Of a DNA stretch of 52,045 nucleotides, positions 42,784-51,702 are shown one piece after another. The position numbers and the translations under genes are program-made. This DNA comes from Sphingobacteriales bacterium (GTDB taxonomy: Bacteria > Bacteroidota > Bacteroidia > UKL13-3). The notes under the pieces are model-generated. The model was given only the letters and a program-made list of their open reading frames with translations. It was not told where the DNA came from and did not search any database. The stretch is taken from the NCBI GenBank assembly GCA_021298155.1, contig JAJTEN010000012.1, positions 1-52,045 of the forward strand, read 5' to 3'. Each line of letters starts with the position of its first letter. Position 1 is the first letter of the stretch.

Positions 42784-43200
42784 TTAATGAGAATTAGATG
42801 GGCAATTTTGGATAGATTTTATCAGACTATCTGAATGCAATGAAACGGGGTTTTCTGGGAATTTTTGCAACACATATAGACAAATAGCTAACACGTCTTG
42901 TTCATTTAACTTATCGTTTGCAGGCATTTTTTGGTTATATGTTTTGCCATTTACCTGAATTTCTCCTTGCATGCCATGCCTAATCATACAAGGTAAGTTC
43001 TTGGCATGCTTCAGCAAATAATCTGACTGCTTCAGGGGTGGAATAAGCATAGCTAATCCGCTTCCATCTGCTTGATGACAATTACTGCAATGTAATTCAT
43101 ATAATTTGGCACCAGTATGTATTTGCTGCATACTAGACAACTCCGCATCAGAGCAAGCATAAAGAAAAAGTATACAAGAAATACACATCAACAATCTCAT
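42784..43200 (-). CDS. Small c-type cytochrome lipoprotein
   Basis: A 138-residue lipoprotein (lipobox FLYAC, Cys16) carrying one class I cytochrome c domain. Heme is bound at C38-S-N-C41-H42 (ELHCSNCHQADGSG), and the distal methionine is likely M92 in YNQKMPAN. It should sit on the outer face of the inner membrane or on the outer membrane and pass electrons. It is the last gene of a tight operon behind the SCO1-like gene, with a four-base overlap, so it is probably made together with copper delivery to a cytochrome oxidase. Its redox partner is not seen in the window. Confidence 0.9.
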   Translation of the reverse strand: MRLLMCISCILFLYACSDAELSSMQQIHTGAKLYELHCSNCHQADGSGLAMLIPPLKQSDYLLKHAKNLPCMIRHGMQGEIQVNGKTYNQKMPANDKLNEQDVLAICLYVLQKFPENPVSLHSDSLIKSIQNCPSNSH

Positions 43201-43796
43201 GGCTTTTCAGATTTAAGAATAAATAAATCTTCAATTAACTGATCTACTTCTTTGGCATCAGTGCCGTTATACACTCCCCTTACCCTGCTTTTTGGGTCAA
43301 CTAAAATAAAGCCACCGCTATGAACATAGCCTCCAGGCTCAGTGCTATCAGGCATAGCTGTGGCATAATAGCCTTTTTCAGCCAACTCATAAATCTGCTC
43401 CCTGTTACCGGTTAAAAATTGCCATTGTTTTCCGTCTGAACCCAAACGACTCGCATATTCCTTTAAAAGCGGAATACTGTCAAATTCTGGATCAATCGTA
43501 TGCGACAATAAAACAAAAGCAGGATCACCCTTAATCTGCTGATACACGCGCAACATTTCTTTTTTCATAATGGGGCAGATGGTTGGACAAGAGGTGAAAA
43601 AGAAATCCGCCACATAAATTTTTCCTTTCACAAAAGCTTCCGTAATGGTATCTCCATCTTGATTCACCAATACAAAGGGAGGCACTGTGGCATAGGTACT
43701 ATCGATAGGTGATTTTTCACCTAATATTGGCAAAGTTTTATTTTGATTGCAAGCCACCAATAGGTATAGACTTATTGCAAAAATTAGATATCTCAT
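43197..43796 (-). CDS. SCO1/SenC family copper chaperone, lipoprotein
   Basis: A 199-residue thioredoxin-fold lipoprotein (lipobox LLVAC, Cys16) of the SCO1/SenC family. The copper site is complete: C70-P-T-I-C74 in FFFTSCPTICPIM and His159 in GGYVHSGGFILVDP. SCO proteins deliver or reduce the CuA centre of cytochrome c oxidase. It overlaps by four bases with the gene before it (lipoprotein) and the gene after it (cytochrome c), which is strong evidence for one functional unit in respiration or copper handling. Confidence 0.93.
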   Translation of the reverse strand: MRYLIFAISLYLLVACNQNKTLPILGEKSPIDSTYATVPPFVLVNQDGDTITEAFVKGKIYVADFFFTSCPTICPIMKKEMLRVYQQIKGDPAFVLLSHTIDPEFDSIPLLKEYASRLGSDGKQWQFLTGNREQIYELAEKGYYATAMPDSTEPGGYVHSGGFILVDPKSRVRGVYNGTDAKEVDQLIEDLFILKSEKP

Positions 43797-44206
43797 GGCG
43801 CTATGGTTTTTAAAGTTGAATCTGCCAGCTGTATGCTTTCATAAATGGCTGCACTTATGCGGTTAATTTCTATTTCCTGTGTTTTTAGGTAGGCTATAGC
43901 CGTATCGCTTTTCGCTGGAATTTGGTAGGAACGCATCCAATTCATCATGGCTGCATCTGCCTTGGTTAAGGCATACGAAACTGTTTGTAAATGCGCTAAA
44001 TTATTTGTGGAAGTGACCGAATCTATCTTGTGTTGAATGCGTTTTCTGAGTGCAAGCACCTTAGCGATTTTTGGCATCACCTCATCATGCACATGCATAA
44101 TAACCGAATCTCTGCGGGCTATTTCAATTATTTGGGCATCTATTTTTGGTTCAGCACATGAACAAAGTAAAGCTAAAAACAAGGCAAAAGATAAGAGAAA
44201 TCGCAT
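43793..44206 (-). CDS. Lipoprotein with HVHDEVMP motif, function unknown
   Basis: A 137-residue lipoprotein (lipobox LLCSC, Cys17) that is otherwise entirely helical. I recognise no known domain. The stretch VIMHVHDEVMPKIAKVLALRKRI (split at MP) carries Met37, His38, His40 and Met44, residues able to bind copper or heme. It lies first in the operon with SCO1 and cytochrome c, overlapping SCO1 by four bases. It follows the histidine kinase by 46 bases without a terminator. A role in copper or cytochrome handling is an inference from this setting. Confidence 0.75.
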   Translation of the reverse strand: MRFLLSFALFLALLCSCAEPKIDAQIIEIARRDSVIMHVHDEVMPKIAKVLALRKRIQHKIDSVTSTNNLAHLQTVSYALTKADAAMMNWMRSYQIPAKSDTAIAYLKTQEIEINRISAAIYESIQLADSTLKTIAP

Positions 44207-44252: not shown

Positions 44253-46253
44253 TCAATATGCCTTTGGGAATGTAAAATAAAAACTTGAGCCTTTACCCTC
44301 TTCACTTTCTACCCAAATATTGCCCCCATTTTTTTCTACAAACTCTTTACACAACAATAAACCCAAACCCGTACCTTTCTCATTTGCTGTTCCTTGGGTA
44401 CTTACATTGGCATGCGCAGTAAATAACGTTTGCCTTTGTTCTTCCGAAATTCCAACTCCGTTATCTATAACAATTATTTGATGAACATCTGGCTCCTCCT
44501 GAGATAATATACTTACAGAACCACCCTCTGGTGTAAACTTTAAAGCATTTGAAAGCAGATTTCTAATGATTAAGTTTACCATGTTTTCATCGGCTAAAAT
44601 ACAGGCGTCTATATCCGTATCATTGGTTAATTGAATTTGCTTTTGAAAAGCCATACTGGTTAACATTTGGCAATTCAACTCGGCCAACTTATGAATATTT
44701 ACCTTTTTGGGTTCAACCTGTACTCCTTTAATCTGACCCGAAGCCCAAACCAACAAGTTTTCAAGTAAATCTATCGTATTTTGAACAGATGCAGCCACTT
44801 GTTTACTCATTTCAGAAGTACTTTCTTGGTAATTTGGAGCAGACACCAAATCAAAATACAGCTTCATGGTGGTAAGGTTATTTCTTAAATCATGTGAAAT
44901 GATAGAAAAAAACCGGTCTTTCACCTGATTGAGTTGGTCTAACTGGGCTCTTTGACTTTCTACCTCTGCATTCTTTGCAGCCAAATCATGCATACCTGCG
45001 CTCAGTTTTTTATTAATGATTCTGTTTTGAGTAATAAAATAAATAAACAATAAAATAAGCAATGCCATTAGCACCGATAAGGCAAGAAAAAAATTCTTTT
45101 CCTGTTTAGCTTGTTGTAAATCTAAACTTCTTAGTTTTTGTTCTTTGCCCATTAACTCTATTTGTGCCTGTTTCTTCTCTGTTTCATACAATAATTGCAA
45201 ATCGGCAGTTTGCTTTAAAATGGAATCATTGAATAACGAATCTTTTATTTCATAACTCAAAGAACGAAATGCTTTCGAAGTTCCCGGATCGTTTAAACCC
45301 TTGTAAACATCAGATAATCCTTGGTAAGCCTCTTCCAATTCAATTTTTAATCCGGCAGGTTTAGCCAGCGCTATGGCCTTTCTATAAAACAAATTTGCCT
45401 TTTCATAATCTTTCCCTTCGGCAAGTAATTTTGCCATACCAATTAAACTGCTTACCTCCAATGGCACAATATGCATAGGCGCTACAAGGTTGTATGCCCT
45501 ATTATAATTATTTAAGGCCTCTTTGTTATTCCCATCCGAAACAAAAAGAGCAGCCATATTTATTAAAGCAGCTGCTTCACCCGGTTTATTGTTTAGGTCT
45601 TTGTATATGCGCTCAGCTTTTTTATAAAATTCAACTGCCTTTACAAATTTATTTTGCCTAGCATACATAGCACCCACCTGCTCGTATATGTTTAATAACC
45701 TAAATTTATCATTTTGCTTTTCAAATAGTGTAATAGCTTTTAAATTATAATCAATTGCCCTAGAAAAATTATTCTGTTTATAATATAAATCTGCCAGCGC
45801 CATATAGGTATTGAGACTACCAATGATATCTGCATGTGATTCAAAGAATCGCAAAGATTCTAAGTAACGTTCTAAGGCTTTGGTAAAATCTCCCTGAGCA
45901 TGAAAAATTGTGGCTAACAAATAGGTAAGCTCCGCTTTTTTCTGACCCAAATTAACACTTTCACAAATGAATAAAGCCTCCTGAATAAATTCTTTCGCAC
46001 TAACATATCTGGCTGCTAAAATATCTAATTGGGCCAATTGTTTTAAGGCTTCCACCTGAACCCCACTTAATCCCTTTTGTTTAGCCTGAACCAATACTTG
46101 CTCAAAAACAACTTGTGATTGGCTCGGCTCATTGTATCGTTTGATAAGCCCCTGCTCTAATTGCTTCTGCAAGATTATACTATCTGTTTGTCCACTTAAA
46201 CTGGATAATAAAAACAGGTAATAAACCAGAAATAAAGATAAAATTTTAGGCAC
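44253..46253 (-). CDS. TPR-containing sensor histidine kinase
   Basis: A 666-residue kinase. The N-terminal signal or anchor (MPKILSLFLVYYLFLLSSLSG) is followed by about seven TPR units (residues about 25-340, for example FTKALERYLESLRFFE and FVKAVEFYKKAERIYKDL), a coiled coil and a second membrane helix near 395-415 (FFLALSVLMALLILLFIYFI). The cytoplasmic kinase has the H box FSIISHDLRNNLTTMK (His near 453), N box NLIIRNLLSNALKF, G1 DNGVGIS and G2 KGTGLGLLLC. Its response regulator gene ends two bases upstream, so the two form a pair. The TPRs lie outside the cell membrane and may sense a partner protein rather than a small ligand. Confidence 0.92.
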   Translation of the reverse strand: MPKILSLFLVYYLFLLSSLSGQTDSIILQKQLEQGLIKRYNEPSQSQVVFEQVLVQAKQKGLSGVQVEALKQLAQLDILAARYVSAKEFIQEALFICESVNLGQKKAELTYLLATIFHAQGDFTKALERYLESLRFFESHADIIGSLNTYMALADLYYKQNNFSRAIDYNLKAITLFEKQNDKFRLLNIYEQVGAMYARQNKFVKAVEFYKKAERIYKDLNNKPGEAAALINMAALFVSDGNNKEALNNYNRAYNLVAPMHIVPLEVSSLIGMAKLLAEGKDYEKANLFYRKAIALAKPAGLKIELEEAYQGLSDVYKGLNDPGTSKAFRSLSYEIKDSLFNDSILKQTADLQLLYETEKKQAQIELMGKEQKLRSLDLQQAKQEKNFFLALSVLMALLILLFIYFITQNRIINKKLSAGMHDLAAKNAEVESQRAQLDQLNQVKDRFFSIISHDLRNNLTTMKLYFDLVSAPNYQESTSEMSKQVAASVQNTIDLLENLLVWASGQIKGVQVEPKKVNIHKLAELNCQMLTSMAFQKQIQLTNDTDIDACILADENMVNLIIRNLLSNALKFTPEGGSVSILSQEEPDVHQIIVIDNGVGISEEQRQTLFTAHANVSTQGTANEKGTGLGLLLCKEFVEKNGGNIWVESEEGKGSSFYFTFPKAY

Positions 46254-46255
46254 TA

Positions 46256-46966
46256 TTACAATTCGTTTTCAAGGAGTTTAAACCCAGATCCATGGATATT
46301 AACAATCTCTAAATTTGGATTAATTTTTAATACATTTCGCAATTTATTAATGTATACATCTAGGTTACGCGCAGTGTAAAAATCGTCTCTACCCCAAACG
46401 TGCAATACCAAACTCTTGCGGGGTAAAAGCTGGCCCTTATTTTTAACAAAGAGCTTTAATAAATCGCACTCTGTGGTACTTATTCTTCTTTCAACAGTTC
46501 CCTGTTTAATTACCCGGTTTGGGATATCTAATATCATTCCAGCTAATTCATATACTTCCTCTTTTAAAATAATATCAGGAATTACTTGAATAGTTCTTTT
46601 CAAAATAGCTCTTAACCTAGCTACTAATTCTTGCGTGCTAAAAGGCTTAGTAATGTATTCATCTGCTCCTAAATTAAAGCCCTTTAATTTATCCTCTTCA
46701 CTGCTATTTGCAGTAAGAAAAACTAAAGGAGTATAGGCATCCTCCTCTCTAATTAATCTTGCTACCTCAAAACCATTTTTCTTGGGCATATTAACATCCA
46801 ATAAAATGATATCAAATTTTTCTTTATTAAATATCTCAAACGCTTCAAGTCCGTCTTTGGCAGTTTGCGTAGTAAAGCCCGAAAGTTTTAAGTTTTCTCT
46901 TAACAAATTTGCGAGTGTACTATCGTCTTCAGCAATTAAAATATGCGGTAATTTTCCTTGATTCAT
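46256..46966 (-). CDS. OmpR-family response regulator
   Basis: A 236-residue response regulator. The receiver domain (residues 8-122) has the acidic pair ED-D (13-15), the phosphorylation site Asp57 in LLDVNMPKKNGFE, the Thr in FLTAN and Lys in YITKPF. The winged-helix DNA-binding domain is at about 135-236 (ISTTECDLLKLFVKNKGQLLPRKSL, split, then VWGRDDFYTARNLDVYINKLR and HGSGFKL). It is followed two bases later by its kinase gene. I start at ATG 46966; the longer start at 47005 adds residues of no receiver character and lies upstream of a -7-like element at 46991-46984. Confidence 0.95.
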   Translation of the reverse strand: MNQGKLPHILIAEDDSTLANLLRENLKLSGFTTQTAKDGLEAFEIFNKEKFDIILLDVNMPKKNGFEVARLIREEDAYTPLVFLTANSSEEDKLKGFNLGADEYITKPFSTQELVARLRAILKRTIQVIPDIILKEEVYELAGMILDIPNRVIKQGTVERRISTTECDLLKLFVKNKGQLLPRKSLVLHVWGRDDFYTARNLDVYINKLRNVLKINPNLEIVNIHGSGFKLLENEL

Positions 46967-46983
46967 AACTGTGATATTATTTT

Positions 46984-46991
46984 CGAATGTA
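46984..46991 (-). promoter_or_regulatory. Possible -7 element of the two-component operon
   Basis: TACATTCG on the minus strand, the same octamer found before dnaA and the transsulfuration gene. No properly spaced -33 was seen. It predicts a leader of about 12 bases to the ATG at 46966. Confidence 0.3.
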
Positions 46992-47092
46992 AGATAATTT
47001 AGCAAATTCTGGAACCAGTGGCTTATATTGCAAGCTATAGATTTGAAATATTGCCCTACAAATTTTATGGTTTTTTCACGTTGTCAAATGAT

Positions 47093-47100
47093 TATATTTG
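47093..47100 (+). promoter_or_regulatory. -7 element before the UbiA-type III PKS operon
   Basis: TATATTTG matches TAnnTTTG exactly. It predicts a leader of about 52 bases before the ATG at 47159. The -33 position has no TTG. Confidence 0.35.
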
Positions 47101-47158
47101 TTTTGTAGCAAAACTTTAAGAAACCCTTTAGAAACATTAAAGAAATTTTTAAGAGCCA

Positions 47159-48049
47159 ATGAAAATACCATCTTTCCTGATTTTACTTAGAATACCATTT
47201 TCATTTTACCTATTGCCTGTATTTCTATTTGCCTTATCTTATGCAGAAAGCATCGATATAGAAAAATCAACCCATCTTTTTATCCTACTGCATCTGTTAA
47301 TATACCCTGCAAGCAATGGATTTAATAGTTTTCAAGATAAAGATAAAACCAGCATTGGAGGCTTAAGTAATCCACCTCAACCCAATAACACTTTGTTATA
47401 TGTTAGCATGGCATTGAACCTAATTGCCATTGCCTATAGTTATTGGATTCATCCCTTTTTATGCCTCTTAATAACCTGTTATATTATTGCCTCTATTGCC
47501 TATAGTTGGAAAATTATTCGATTAAAAAAATACCCATTATTTAGCTTCATCACTGTAGTTTTTTTCCAAGGTTTTATAACTTATATTTCAACCTATTTAT
47601 TTTGTCAACAGAGCAACTACCCCGAGAATTTGGGTCAGACCAACTTCTTATTACCTGCAATTATTAGCAGTTTAATGGTAGCAGGAGCTTATCCTATGAC
47701 TCAAATTTACCAACACGAGGCAGACAAATTAAGCGGCGATTTAACCCTTAGCAGGGTATTGGGTATAAAAGGAACATTTGCTTTTTCTGCATTAATGAAT
47801 ACCATGGTTTTCATTATAATGGGGTACTTTTTATTGAATACAAACCAATCTCATTTTTTTTATTTATTCATTATTTTCGTTTTCCCACCCTTAAGTTTCT
47901 TTACATGGTGGTACAACAAAGTTAGGAAAAGTGATGTGTATGCAAACTATAGGTATACTATGATTTTAAACAATATCTCATCCATTTCGTTAGTGTTATA
48001 TTATCTGCTTATCATCATTTTAGAAAACATCAGTGAGATATCTCTATAA
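47159..48049 (+). CDS. UbiA family prenyltransferase
   Basis: A 296-residue inner membrane protein with about eight to nine transmembrane helices. The UbiA prenyl-diphosphate motifs are recognisable: the first in YPASNGFNSFQDKDKTS (Asn56, Asp60, Asp62) and the second in YQHEADKLSGDLTLSRVLG. UbiA enzymes attach an isoprenoid chain to an aromatic or quinone-like acceptor. It overlaps the type III polyketide synthase gene by 17 bases, so the PKS product is its likely acceptor, but this is inferred from gene order alone. The protein is divergent from MenA and UbiA proper. Confidence 0.83.
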   Translation: MKIPSFLILLRIPFSFYLLPVFLFALSYAESIDIEKSTHLFILLHLLIYPASNGFNSFQDKDKTSIGGLSNPPQPNNTLLYVSMALNLIAIAYSYWIHPFLCLLITCYIIASIAYSWKIIRLKKYPLFSFITVVFFQGFITYISTYLFCQQSNYPENLGQTNFLLPAIISSLMVAGAYPMTQIYQHEADKLSGDLTLSRVLGIKGTFAFSALMNTMVFIIMGYFLLNTNQSHFFYLFIIFVFPPLSFFTWWYNKVRKSDVYANYRYTMILNNISSISLVLYYLLIIILENISEISL

Positions 48050-49115
48050 TATCCAAACCAGCCTACCCAAATTTCAAATTCCGCAAATTGAATTGGGTCA
48101 ATATATGGCAGAACAATATGATTTTAGCGAGGAAGAAAAAGCAAAGCTTATGCTCATGTATAAGCGAAGTGGCATTGCCAATAGACACAGTTGTTTGCCA
48201 GATTTTAATTTAACCGAAACAAACAAGGAACTATTTATAAACCAGGATGAGCCAAGTGTTTCTAAACGTATGGAAACCTACTTTAAACATGCGCTACCGC
48301 TGGCAACTGAGGCTGCTTTTGACGCATTGCAAGGAGAAAAAATTAGCCACCTAATTACTGTTTCTTGTACCGGAATGGCAGCACCTGGGCTAGATTTAAT
48401 GCTAATAGACACGCTACATTTACCTTTGCACACACACAGAAGTTCTGTTAATTTTATGGGATGCTATGCCTATTTTCATGCACTTAAAATTGCAGATGCT
48501 TACTGCCAAAGCGACCCACATGCAAGGGTATTAATTGTAAGTGTAGAATTATGTACCATACATTTTAATAAAGCAAAAGATACCGATCAAATTGCGGCCA
48601 ATTTATTATTTGCAGATGGGGCAGCAGCCTGTTTGGTTAGTGCACAAAGGCCCAATCACAATGCCTATTTTAGTATCGACTCATTTTACTCAAAAATAGT
48701 ACCTCAAGGCAAATCAGATATGGCCTGGAAAATTCATGAAACGGGGTTTTTAATGACTTTGAGTGCCTATATTCCACAAATTCTACAAAGCTCCATCAAA
48801 CCAATTATTGAAGAAGCTTTATCAATAAAAAACAGCACAATAACTAATATTCAACATTGGGGAATACATCCTGGCGGGAGGAAAATTTTAGATTATTTAT
48901 CGGCAGAATTGGGCTTAACGCAAACAGATTTACGCGCCAGTTATGCTGTGTTGAATGAAGTAGGAAATCTTTCAAGCAGCACTATTCTATTTGTACTACA
49001 AAATATTTTAAACAGAGATGGATACTCACCAAATCAACCCTGTTTCACCGCTGGATTTGGTCCGGGATTAACCATAGAAACCATGCTATTAAACCACGCT
49101 ACCCATTCTGTTTAA
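48033..49115 (+). CDS. Type III polyketide synthase (chalcone synthase family)
   Basis: A 360-residue thiolase-fold enzyme of the chalcone/stilbene synthase family. The catalytic triad is complete: Cys144 in VNFMGCYAYFHA, His279 in QHWGIHPGGRKIL and Asn312 in NEVGNLSSSTI. Other family blocks are VSCTGMAAPGLD and FADGAAACLV. Such enzymes extend an acyl-CoA starter with malonyl-CoA into alkylresorcinols, pyrones or related aromatics. It starts at GTG 48033 inside the UbiA gene, so translation is probably coupled. Its last 17 bases overlap the end of the converging AAA+ gene. Starter and product are unknown. Confidence 0.93.
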   Translation: MRYLYNIQTSLPKFQIPQIELGQYMAEQYDFSEEEKAKLMLMYKRSGIANRHSCLPDFNLTETNKELFINQDEPSVSKRMETYFKHALPLATEAAFDALQGEKISHLITVSCTGMAAPGLDLMLIDTLHLPLHTHRSSVNFMGCYAYFHALKIADAYCQSDPHARVLIVSVELCTIHFNKAKDTDQIAANLLFADGAAACLVSAQRPNHNAYFSIDSFYSKIVPQGKSDMAWKIHETGFLMTLSAYIPQILQSSIKPIIEEALSIKNSTITNIQHWGIHPGGRKILDYLSAELGLTQTDLRASYAVLNEVGNLSSSTILFVLQNILNRDGYSPNQPCFTAGFGPGLTIETMLLNHATHSV

Positions 49116-51702
49116 ATCCAATATTTCGTTTTGGCTCTTGTTCATTTGGAACCACTTTTAAATGCTGAACATCCTCCAAGTACAAAGTATTTATCATTTC
49201 TATGGTTCGCTCTGCTTGAGACAATTTAGCTAAGCGTAAATGTTGACTTTTAATCACTTCTTCTACTACTTTCCTCACATTTCGTGCATTCCCAAAATAC
49301 TGATTCCGATTGGCAAATAAGTCTGAGAAATAAGACTGCAGATGACCCGAGGCAGCTTCATTAGGAGTAATATTATTACCGATGAGCATTTTTATGGCAA
49401 TTTGAAACAACTGCTCGGCCCCATAATCTTCAAAATGAAGTTCCCTATCAAAACGGGAGCGCAAACCTGGGTTACTTTCAAGAAATCTGCGCATATTTTC
49501 TGTATAACCGGCAACAATTACAATAAAATTACCCCGATTATCTTCCATTCTTTTGAGCAATGTTTCTATGGCTTCTTTTCCAAAATCATTTTCACCCCCT
49601 TCACTTAGTGCATAAGCTTCATCAATAAATAAAACGCCACCTTGTGCCTTATCAATTAATTCTGCCGTTTTAATAGCTGTTTGACCTACAAATCCGCCTA
49701 CTAATGCTTGCCTATCGCACTCCACTAAATTGCCACGCTCTAGAATGCCTAAGGCTTTATAAATTTGGGCTAGAATTCTGGCAACGGTAGTTTTACCAGT
49801 GCCCGGATTACCGGTAAACACAGCATGTAAAGAAAAACTTTGCCGTACATCTTTACCAATTTCTCTATAAAAACGCACTAATTTAACCAGCTCATCTATC
49901 TCATTTTTAACAGAGTCTAAGCCAATCAAATGATGCAAAGTATTTAATGCCTGTTTTAATAAATCCTCATCAATTGGAATATCTGCCACGCCTTTTTTCT
50001 TCCCTTCAAAAATCCTTTCAATATCTGCACTTTGAATGGTTGAGATTTCTTCATTAGATAACATGGCAGGGTTATGGGTTTGCATTAAACGCAAACCCAT
50101 ATTCATTTTACTTTCATCAATGAGTGTATTTACATACCTGGCATTCCCAAATGCTGCATCCCTATTTCTGTATGCATCTACCAATTTTTTATATAAATAT
50201 TCTTCTGCCCCAGTGCTTAAAGAAACGCCTCGTTTTTGCATGGTAAATCTTGCAATCTGCATTAATTCTTGAGGAATATAATCTACAAAATCATAAAACA
50301 TACTGAACCTAGACCGCATACCTGGATTAGACGCTAAGAAATTATTCATTTCATTGGGATAACCTGCTACAATAATTGCTAGGTCGCCCTCCCCATCACT
50401 CATCTCTTTTAATAATATTTCTATGGCTTCTTTTCCAAAGTCTTTCGAGTCATCGTTTTTTCTCGCTAGCGCATAGGCTTCATCTACAAACAAAATTCCG
50501 CCTCGTGCTTTTTTAATTGCCTCCTTGGTTTTAGGCGCTGTTTGTCCGATATACTCTGCAACTAAATCACTTCTATCTACCTCTAATACATGTCCTTTAC
50601 TTAGCAAACCCATTTGATGATAAATCATACCTAACATGTTTGCCACGGTAGTTTTACCTGTACCTGGATTACCCGTAAACACAGCATGCAAATTTATACG
50701 CTCATTATCATCAAAGCCCTTTTCTTTTCTAATTTTTAAAAAGTTAAGGTAAGTAGTGTATTCTTTAACCTTCTTTTTAATTTCATCTAAGCCAATAAGT
50801 GCATCTAATTCTTGCAAGAGTTTTTCCATGCTTGCATCCATTGGTTCGGCCTTAATTATTTCTTTGGGTTTAGGCTTGAGTAAAATTGGTCGTGCTTCCT
50901 CAATAAAAGCTGTACCTACTTCAAAGGGTATAGTAGCAATAATTTGGTCCATAAATAATACGCTAATGGAATAGGTATCTATGCCCCAAGTGCCTTTTAA
51001 TTCGTTTCCCCAACCAACAGTACATTCAAACGTTTTCTGTTTGGTATCAACAAATAATAACTTGTCAATTGCGCCTTTTAATTGACCTGTATTTGTATTA
51101 AAATAAAATTGCAATTCGCAAGGCCAAATCGCAATCTCTTCAATAAGATTTTCTAATTCTAATTCTAGCCAAACATAGCGTGTTTCATCGCTACTAAACA
51201 CCGAATAATATTTACGCTCTGGCATCAAAACGTTGTTTTCTGAGCCTTCGTATAATTTAATTTTATTTACCTTAAAGAACGGATTTACAGTTTCTGAAAC
51301 GAGTCCGAGATCGATGATATAGAAAACTTTTTCTCCAACAAATTCATTGTCTATCCATGCTTCCCATCTGTATATCCCCTTCTTCCAATAGTTACCTGCA
51401 TTTTTTACACCCCAACCCTCCCGAATAAAAACAATATTTTCATCTTTCGTAATATTTCTATCAGCTGTTAAATTGCATATTTCACTACCATCCTCATCGT
51501 TCACGCATTTTAGGCTAATCCGAGCAGTCCAATCTTGCTCATCAAATAATTTATTAAAAAAAGAAAGTTCACAATAGATAAAGCTGCATTCGGCCTCATC
51601 AAATACCTGACGGTATTTCTTTTCATTATTTGCCAGCCATTCTGTTGAACCAAATATTTTGATGTCTCTAATTTTGTATTTGTGTGAAAGTTCTTTTGAC
51701 AT
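49099..51702 (-). CDS. Tandem CbbX/SpoVK-like AAA+ ATPase with duplicated N-terminal beta domains
   Basis: An 867-residue cytoplasmic protein. Two CbbX-type AAA+ modules have complete motifs: Walker A GNPGTGKTTVA near 339 and 628, Walker B GGILFVDEAYAL near 401 and GGVLFIDEAYAL near 687, and arginine-rich sensor blocks NPGMRSRF and NPGLRSRF. CbbX-type ATPases remodel partner proteins (CbbX acts on RuBisCO, EccA in type VII secretion). The first 270 residues are not AAA+: they are beta-rich and look like two repeats of about 125 residues, each starting FGSTEW or YEGSEN and ending at a W-rich GWG and Y-x-W-x-hydrophobic strand. I recognise no named domain there. The client protein is unknown; no RuBisCO or secretion gene is nearby. 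Confidence 0.87.
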   Translation of the reverse strand: MSKELSHKYKIRDIKIFGSTEWLANNEKKYRQVFDEAECSFIYCELSFFNKLFDEQDWTARISLKCVNDEDGSEICNLTADRNITKDENIVFIREGWGVKNAGNYWKKGIYRWEAWIDNEFVGEKVFYIIDLGLVSETVNPFFKVNKIKLYEGSENNVLMPERKYYSVFSSDETRYVWLELELENLIEEIAIWPCELQFYFNTNTGQLKGAIDKLLFVDTKQKTFECTVGWGNELKGTWGIDTYSISVLFMDQIIATIPFEVGTAFIEEARPILLKPKPKEIIKAEPMDASMEKLLQELDALIGLDEIKKKVKEYTTYLNFLKIRKEKGFDDNERINLHAVFTGNPGTGKTTVANMLGMIYHQMGLLSKGHVLEVDRSDLVAEYIGQTAPKTKEAIKKARGGILFVDEAYALARKNDDSKDFGKEAIEILLKEMSDGEGDLAIIVAGYPNEMNNFLASNPGMRSRFSMFYDFVDYIPQELMQIARFTMQKRGVSLSTGAEEYLYKKLVDAYRNRDAAFGNARYVNTLIDESKMNMGLRLMQTHNPAMLSNEEISTIQSADIERIFEGKKKGVADIPIDEDLLKQALNTLHHLIGLDSVKNEIDELVKLVRFYREIGKDVRQSFSLHAVFTGNPGTGKTTVARILAQIYKALGILERGNLVECDRQALVGGFVGQTAIKTAELIDKAQGGVLFIDEAYALSEGGENDFGKEAIETLLKRMEDNRGNFIVIVAGYTENMRRFLESNPGLRSRFDRELHFEDYGAEQLFQIAIKMLIGNNITPNEAASGHLQSYFSDLFANRNQYFGNARNVRKVVEEVIKSQHLRLAKLSQAERTIEMINTLYLEDVQHLKVVPNEQEPKRNIGFKQNG

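Follow-up and report, generated by a model that had tools for sequence, protein, structure and literature searches.

A predicted membrane prenyltransferase gene and a type III polyketide synthase (PKS) gene, which overlap in the window (the whole stretch of DNA that was analysed, 52,045 nucleotides of a contig from a Sphingobacteriales bacterium), are probably half of a four-enzyme pathway that is split over two loci and that, like the agq system of Actinoplanes missouriensis, would make a prenylated phenolic or hydroquinone lipid. We propose that the PKS would condense malonyl units with an acyl-CoA, probably one derived from a fatty acid, to give an alkylresorcinol-type ring. A methyltransferase (MT, UbiG/UbiE-like) and an FAD monooxygenase (FAD, GGR/UbiH-like) that are encoded elsewhere in the genome would then methylate and hydroxylate the ring, and the membrane protein, which we will term UbiA, would add a prenyl chain. 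We infer the order of these steps, the prenyl donor, and the location of the product in the membrane. A two-component system that is encoded next to ubiA would control the pair via an array of four repeats. The features of the locus are listed in Table 1.

Table 1. Features of the ubiA-PKS locus (positions in the window)
Feature	Position	Strand	Basis or remark
TPR-containing histidine kinase	44253..46253	-	HATPase_c 5e-25, HisKA 2.9e-7, TPR_12 9.8e-26
Response regulator, OmpR/PhoB-type, divergent	46256..47005	-	Response_reg 3.8e-30, Trans_reg_C 8.2e-16
TATATTTG, match to the Bacteroidetes -7 element	47093..47100	+	Conserved in four close species only
Four tandem 7-mers (TTTAAGA, CTTTAGA, TTAAAGA, TTTAAGA), exact 11-bp period	47115..47154	+	Just before the ubiA start
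UbiA-superfamily membrane prenyltransferase gene (predicted)	47159..48049	+	296 aa, ATG start; Pfam PF01040, fold, motifs
Overlap of the UbiA and PKS reading frames, 17 bases	48033..48049	+	ORF coordinates
Type III PKS gene	48033..49115	+	360 aa, GTG start; Pfam, PDB relatives (e.g., PKS18), residues, fold

UbiA and the PKS form a conserved pair

The first-pass annotation had described an overlapping UbiA/type III PKS pair, and the open reading frames, Pfam matches, and predicted structures confirm that the pair is real. As the two frames lie in tandem with an overlap, they are likely to be co-translated. The start codon of the PKS agrees with the N-termini of its relatives. The UbiA family of Pfam matches the first protein at 3.7e-13 (49.8 bits, versus a cut-off of 34.2), and the PKS matches Chal_sti_synt_C (1.5e-23) and Chal_sti_synt_N (7.7e-22), both above the cut-offs. 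NCBIfam gave no specific subfamily for either protein (the UbiA matches were far under the cut-off). The top NCBIfam match of the PKS was DpgA, which we rejected because it scored 150 bits against a cut-off of 425 bits. AlphaFold models of UbiA and the PKS are confident (pLDDT of 95 and 94, respectively). The UbiA model aligns with UbiA structures at TM scores of 0.6–0.7, and its nearest folds are UbiA enzymes, some of them solved with prenyl diphosphates. The PKS model aligns with type III PKSs, including PKS18, at a TM score of about 0.9, and among solved structures, PKS18 and the homologue of PKS18 from M. marinum come nearest to it. The host assembly (2.5 Mb in 71 contigs, 98.7% complete) contains one type III PKS and six UbiA-family matches, including the gene described here.

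The PKS gene is convergent with a gene on the minus strand (49099-51702) whose 867-aa product resembles a tandem pair of CbbX-like AAA+ modules. The ends of these two genes overlap by 17 bases, and throughout the genus the AAA+ gene stays next to the locus.

We sought the PKS in several hundred Bacteroidota genomes, placed 114 loci and reference PKSs in a tree (a quick maximum-likelihood tree with no mixture model), and read the neighbouring genes from mechanical ORF calls. The window's PKS lies in a clade of 85 entries (SH-aLRT 98), which comprises 84 from Bacteroidota and one from a Psychrobacter plasmid. The same UbiA is encoded within three genes of the PKS in 77 of the 85; it is directly adjacent upstream in 74 and downstream in 3, and in 57 of the 77 loci it is upstream, adjacent, and on the same strand. 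The seven Bacteroidota entries that have no ubiA nearby have one elsewhere in their genomes. These data support the pair being a conserved unit whose adjacency is no accident. The earlier view that the two genes belong together thus holds up: their adjacency is common in other genomes, and among the reference enzymes in the tree the PKS groups with none, of a different use or otherwise. It is extremely unlikely that UbiA and the PKS are chance neighbours with unrelated functions. UbiA does at times survive without the PKS, but the two are linked across the class and beyond, and they co-occur genome-wide in the Bacteroidota exceptions.

In most loci of this clade outside of the window's genus and g5, the typical gene order is UbiA-PKS-MT-FAD. 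Loci with PKS-MT-FAD but no UbiA also exist, both in further clades and in Deinococcus and Proteobacteria, so UbiA looks like a later addition to an older three-gene module.

The methyltransferase and FAD genes are at a second locus

We used the MT and FAD proteins of a relative's contiguous cluster (L055) as queries against 21 genomes. In the window's genome, orthologues of both lie side by side on contig 35 (G000:C35:16901-18734) and are 55% (MT) and 51% (FAD) identical to the L055 proteins. They are followed by an SDR gene and a flavin reductase gene, as in the relatives' contiguous clusters. The first-pass annotation had reported that the methyltransferase and the FAD oxidoreductase were absent, which was mistaken, and its picture of a minimal two-gene pathway falls with that claim. 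Its other suggestion, a prenylated polyketide aromatic, is still the best reading of the pair.

Both genes also track the PKS across the family. MT was found in all 19 family genomes that have the PKS and in none of the 27 that lack it (a Fisher test gives 2e-13, a value that is too strong, as relatives do not count as independent samples and a few of the genomes are incomplete). In two PKS-less genomes of the same genus (G013 and G015), we found no MT and only weak paralogues of FAD. The distances among the UbiA, PKS, MT, and FAD proteins are correlated (r of 0.71–0.84), to which shared descent contributes. A stand-alone pathway of two genes that makes a simple prenylated polyketide would fit the absence of MT and FAD from beside the pair in the window's genus, but as the same genome encodes both, and both track the PKS, we consider this very unlikely.

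Thus, the predicted pathway is complete, with its four genes split between two loci (C16 and C35). These genes are clustered in most relatives. Other species of the window's genus have the same split, and in two g5 genomes MT and FAD are also separated from each other. In the tree, a single group (SH-aLRT 94) unites the split loci from g1 with those from g5, so the contiguous UbiA-PKS-MT-FAD arrangement is probably ancestral.

The SDR, the flavin reductase, and DPRP were rejected as core genes of the pathway, as they are kept beside UbiA where PKS-MT-FAD is gone. At locus L079 (7554-10735, minus strand), MT-FAD-SDR-flavin reductase is part of a long co-directional run behind secA-like, deoC-like, and fumarylacetoacetase-family genes. 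In some relatives, DPRP, a photolyase-related gene, joins the MT-FAD-SDR-flavin reductase run.

UbiA has altered motifs that can decay where the PKS is lost

The first motif of UbiA is N53-x2-N56-S57-x2-D60-x-D62 and the second is Q182-x-Y184-Q185-H-x2-D189. Relative to the family motif NxxxDxxxD, the NxxxD is kept and the further aspartate is at +2 rather than +4. Also, the canonical DxxxD is replaced by Q185-x3-D189, with Q185 in place of the first aspartate, and the lack of this motif counts against the proposed pathway. All nine of the named residues (N53, N56, S57, D60, D62, Q182, Y184, Q185, and D189) are identical in 77 of 77 PKS-linked homologues, in which 26 UbiA residues in total are invariant. 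This predicted UbiA subfamily with altered diphosphate-binding motifs is new here.

Several genomes have lost the PKS and kept UbiA. In four g2 genomes (G019, G085, G083, and G079; loci L231, L232, L233, and L249), the gene order is UbiA-SDR-flavin reductase-DPRP, and the PKS-MT-FAD genes that intervene in their relatives are gone. The UbiA proteins of these genomes have lost 13 to 16 of the 26 invariant residues, including D60 and D62 of motif 1, whereas PKS-linked UbiA proteins of similar divergence have lost 0 to 3. (The four cases may represent a single event, and one of the four, G079, has the other, ICMT-linked kind of PKS.) This suggests that the gene was kept while its function was lost or changed. 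In contrast, six UbiA proteins that are unlinked but are from PKS-bearing genomes have lost none of the 26 residues. So, it is the presence of the PKS in the genome, rather than adjacency to it, that goes with an intact UbiA active site. This decay after the loss of the PKS is our strongest evidence that UbiA would act on a product of the PKS pathway.

Two loci from the window's genus complete the comparison. At L230 (G015:C30), the PKS is cleanly gone and the order histidine kinase-response regulator-array-UbiA-AAA is intact; only two invariant residues of this UbiA are changed, one of them Q185. At L248 (G003:C137), there is no neighbouring PKS, the same gene order is intact, and UbiA has lost no invariant residue, though this assembly has 8% contamination and contains other copies of the PKS. 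The persistence of UbiA at both loci counts against the proposed pathway.

Could UbiA be part of the pathway without transferring a prenyl group onto the PKS product, with its altered motifs serving as a scaffold or in another transfer? Its motifs are invariant but non-canonical, both in having Q185 for the first aspartate and in having DxD after NxxNSxx, which could fit such a role. We think that this is unlikely because both aspartates of motif 1 and D189 are invariant in all 77 homologues, because the motif 1 aspartates are among the residues that are lost where the PKS is gone, and because the nearest folds to the predicted structure are UbiA enzymes, as described above.

The PKS active site and the type of product

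The catalytic triad of the PKS (Cys144-His279-Asn312) is kept in 77 of 77 members of the UbiA-linked set, and so is a second active-site thiol, Cys112, at the position of Cys106 in THNS. A117 (conserved in 76 of 77) and C174 match A148 and C205 of PKS18; we take A148 to be a residue of the active-site tunnel. The second thiol and these two matches speak for the proposed pathway. At other tunnel positions of PKS18 (PMC6274091), the PKS differs: N208 is replaced by H, A209 by F, L266 by W, and L348 by S. As the tunnel residues are only partly kept, a long-chain starter is not assured. W232 is not diagnostic for a resorcinol product by the Trp281 rule from ArsB, as the pyrone enzyme PKS11 also has W in the aligned stretch.

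Given that its closest solved structures are PKS18, an alkylpyrone enzyme, and the M. marinum homologue, and given the two shared tunnel residues, the PKS might make alkylpyrones instead of resorcinols; MT and FAD would then tailor these and UbiA would have a different acceptor. This seems doubtful. First, the PKS is apart in the tree from PKS18 and from the clade of PKS11, RePKS, and the ICMT-linked enzymes. Second, PKS18 and PKS11 lack the second thiol. Third, the MT-FAD-linked PKSs of planctomycetes and cyanobacteria make alkylresorcinols (PMC10896814). We therefore favour an alkylresorcinol-type ring as the product.

Comparison with known systems

The closest parallel in activities is agqA-D of Actinoplanes missouriensis. 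The agqB and agqC genes encode the methyltransferase and the oxygenase. The agqA-D cluster (Awakawa 2011) is reported to yield alkyl-O-dihydrogeranyl-methoxyhydroquinones: an alkylresorcinol is prenylated and hydroxylated, and it is a membrane enzyme that carries out the O-prenylation (PMC7692728, PMC4044012, PMC10896814). The window's genome has the whole set (type III PKS, UbiA, methyltransferase, and FAD oxygenase), as matched by predicted activities. In contrast to agq, the system described here is in Bacteroidota, occupies two loci, has altered UbiA motifs, and has a two-component system and a repeat array alongside. As the genes are split, we do not classify it as a member of the agq type, but propose that it would work like one. 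(Streptomyces plasmid loci were rejected as a sequenced agq-like comparison, as their neighbours differ.)

In hidABC of picocyanobacteria and in the MT-FAD-type III PKS operons of planctomycetes, the PKS makes pentadecyl- and heptadecylresorcinols, and the operons both make and modify alkylresorcinols (PMC10896814). These systems share the methyltransferase, the FAD oxidoreductase, and the PKS with the pathway described here, but no UbiA is mentioned for them, and their PKS gene is last, whereas in the relatives with contiguous clusters it comes before MT and FAD. We did not find a contiguous three-gene operon of this type in the window's genome. Because MT-FAD-PKS operons make alkylresorcinols, and adding UbiA gives the activities of agqA-D, we propose an agq-like lipid. 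In the SrsA system (Streptomyces griseus) and the FtpA system (Myxococcus xanthus), a type III PKS likewise makes alkylresorcinols, which are oxidised further to alkylquinones (PMC10896814), but no prenylation step is described.

The family also has another kind of type III PKS (L066, L077, and L078), with an ICMT-family methyltransferase and near PKS11 and RePKS (alkylpyrone-type). It too has a methyltransferase neighbour (in G033, G066, and G079), but it forms a separate clade, its methyltransferase is of another family, and it has neither the second thiol nor an adjacent UbiA. The window's PKS is not in the PKS11-like clade and has no ICMT neighbour.

A putative regulatory array upstream of ubiA

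The histidine kinase is the predicted partner of the response regulator, whose true start is likely an ATG near 46966. At most of the family's loci, both genes are next to UbiA-PKS, and the histidine kinase remains beside UbiA even at loci that have lost the PKS. (Behind the histidine kinase are small cytochrome-c-like, SCO1-like, and lipoprotein-like genes, at 42784-44206 on the minus strand, which are kept in several loci of the same genus.)

The box bound by PhoB-type regulators consists of direct 7-bp repeats with 4-bp spacers, and the array before ubiA has this geometry. It is in register in 14 of 14 loci from the same genus and is also present at the PKS-less loci of G015 and G003. By chance, 0.04 matches would be expected in the window at 3 mismatches. 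The array is probably bound by the divergent response regulator, so that the two-component system probably regulates ubiA and the PKS through it. This predicted four-fold array is new here and occurs once in the 2.5-Mb genome, so we rejected shared control of the MT-FAD locus by the array.

The first-pass annotation had placed both genes behind one -7 element. The element, TATATTTG, does exist, but its conservation does not extend across the genus. If TATATTTG is the promoter, then the array lies downstream of the transcription start, which would suggest that the regulator represses ubiA and the PKS.

Implications

Among open-licence papers, we found none on UbiA with a type III PKS in Bacteroidetes (an earlier description elsewhere is possible) and none that reports a product for the Bacteroidia pathway. 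It is also possible, though less likely than not, that this UbiA subfamily, which is mainly from Bacteroidota and has altered but invariant motifs, performs an unusual prenyl transfer onto a polyketide aromatic to make an unrecognised class of redox-active or protective membrane lipid under dedicated two-component control.

The split loci imply that a scan of gene neighbourhoods alone would misjudge the pathway as a two-gene stub, as the first-pass annotation did. The natural losses of the PKS are ready-made comparisons, and the repeat array offers a direct handle on what switches the pathway. More broadly, prenylated phenolic-lipid biosynthesis of a kind that has its characterised example in an actinobacterium seems to be common across the class Bacteroidia.
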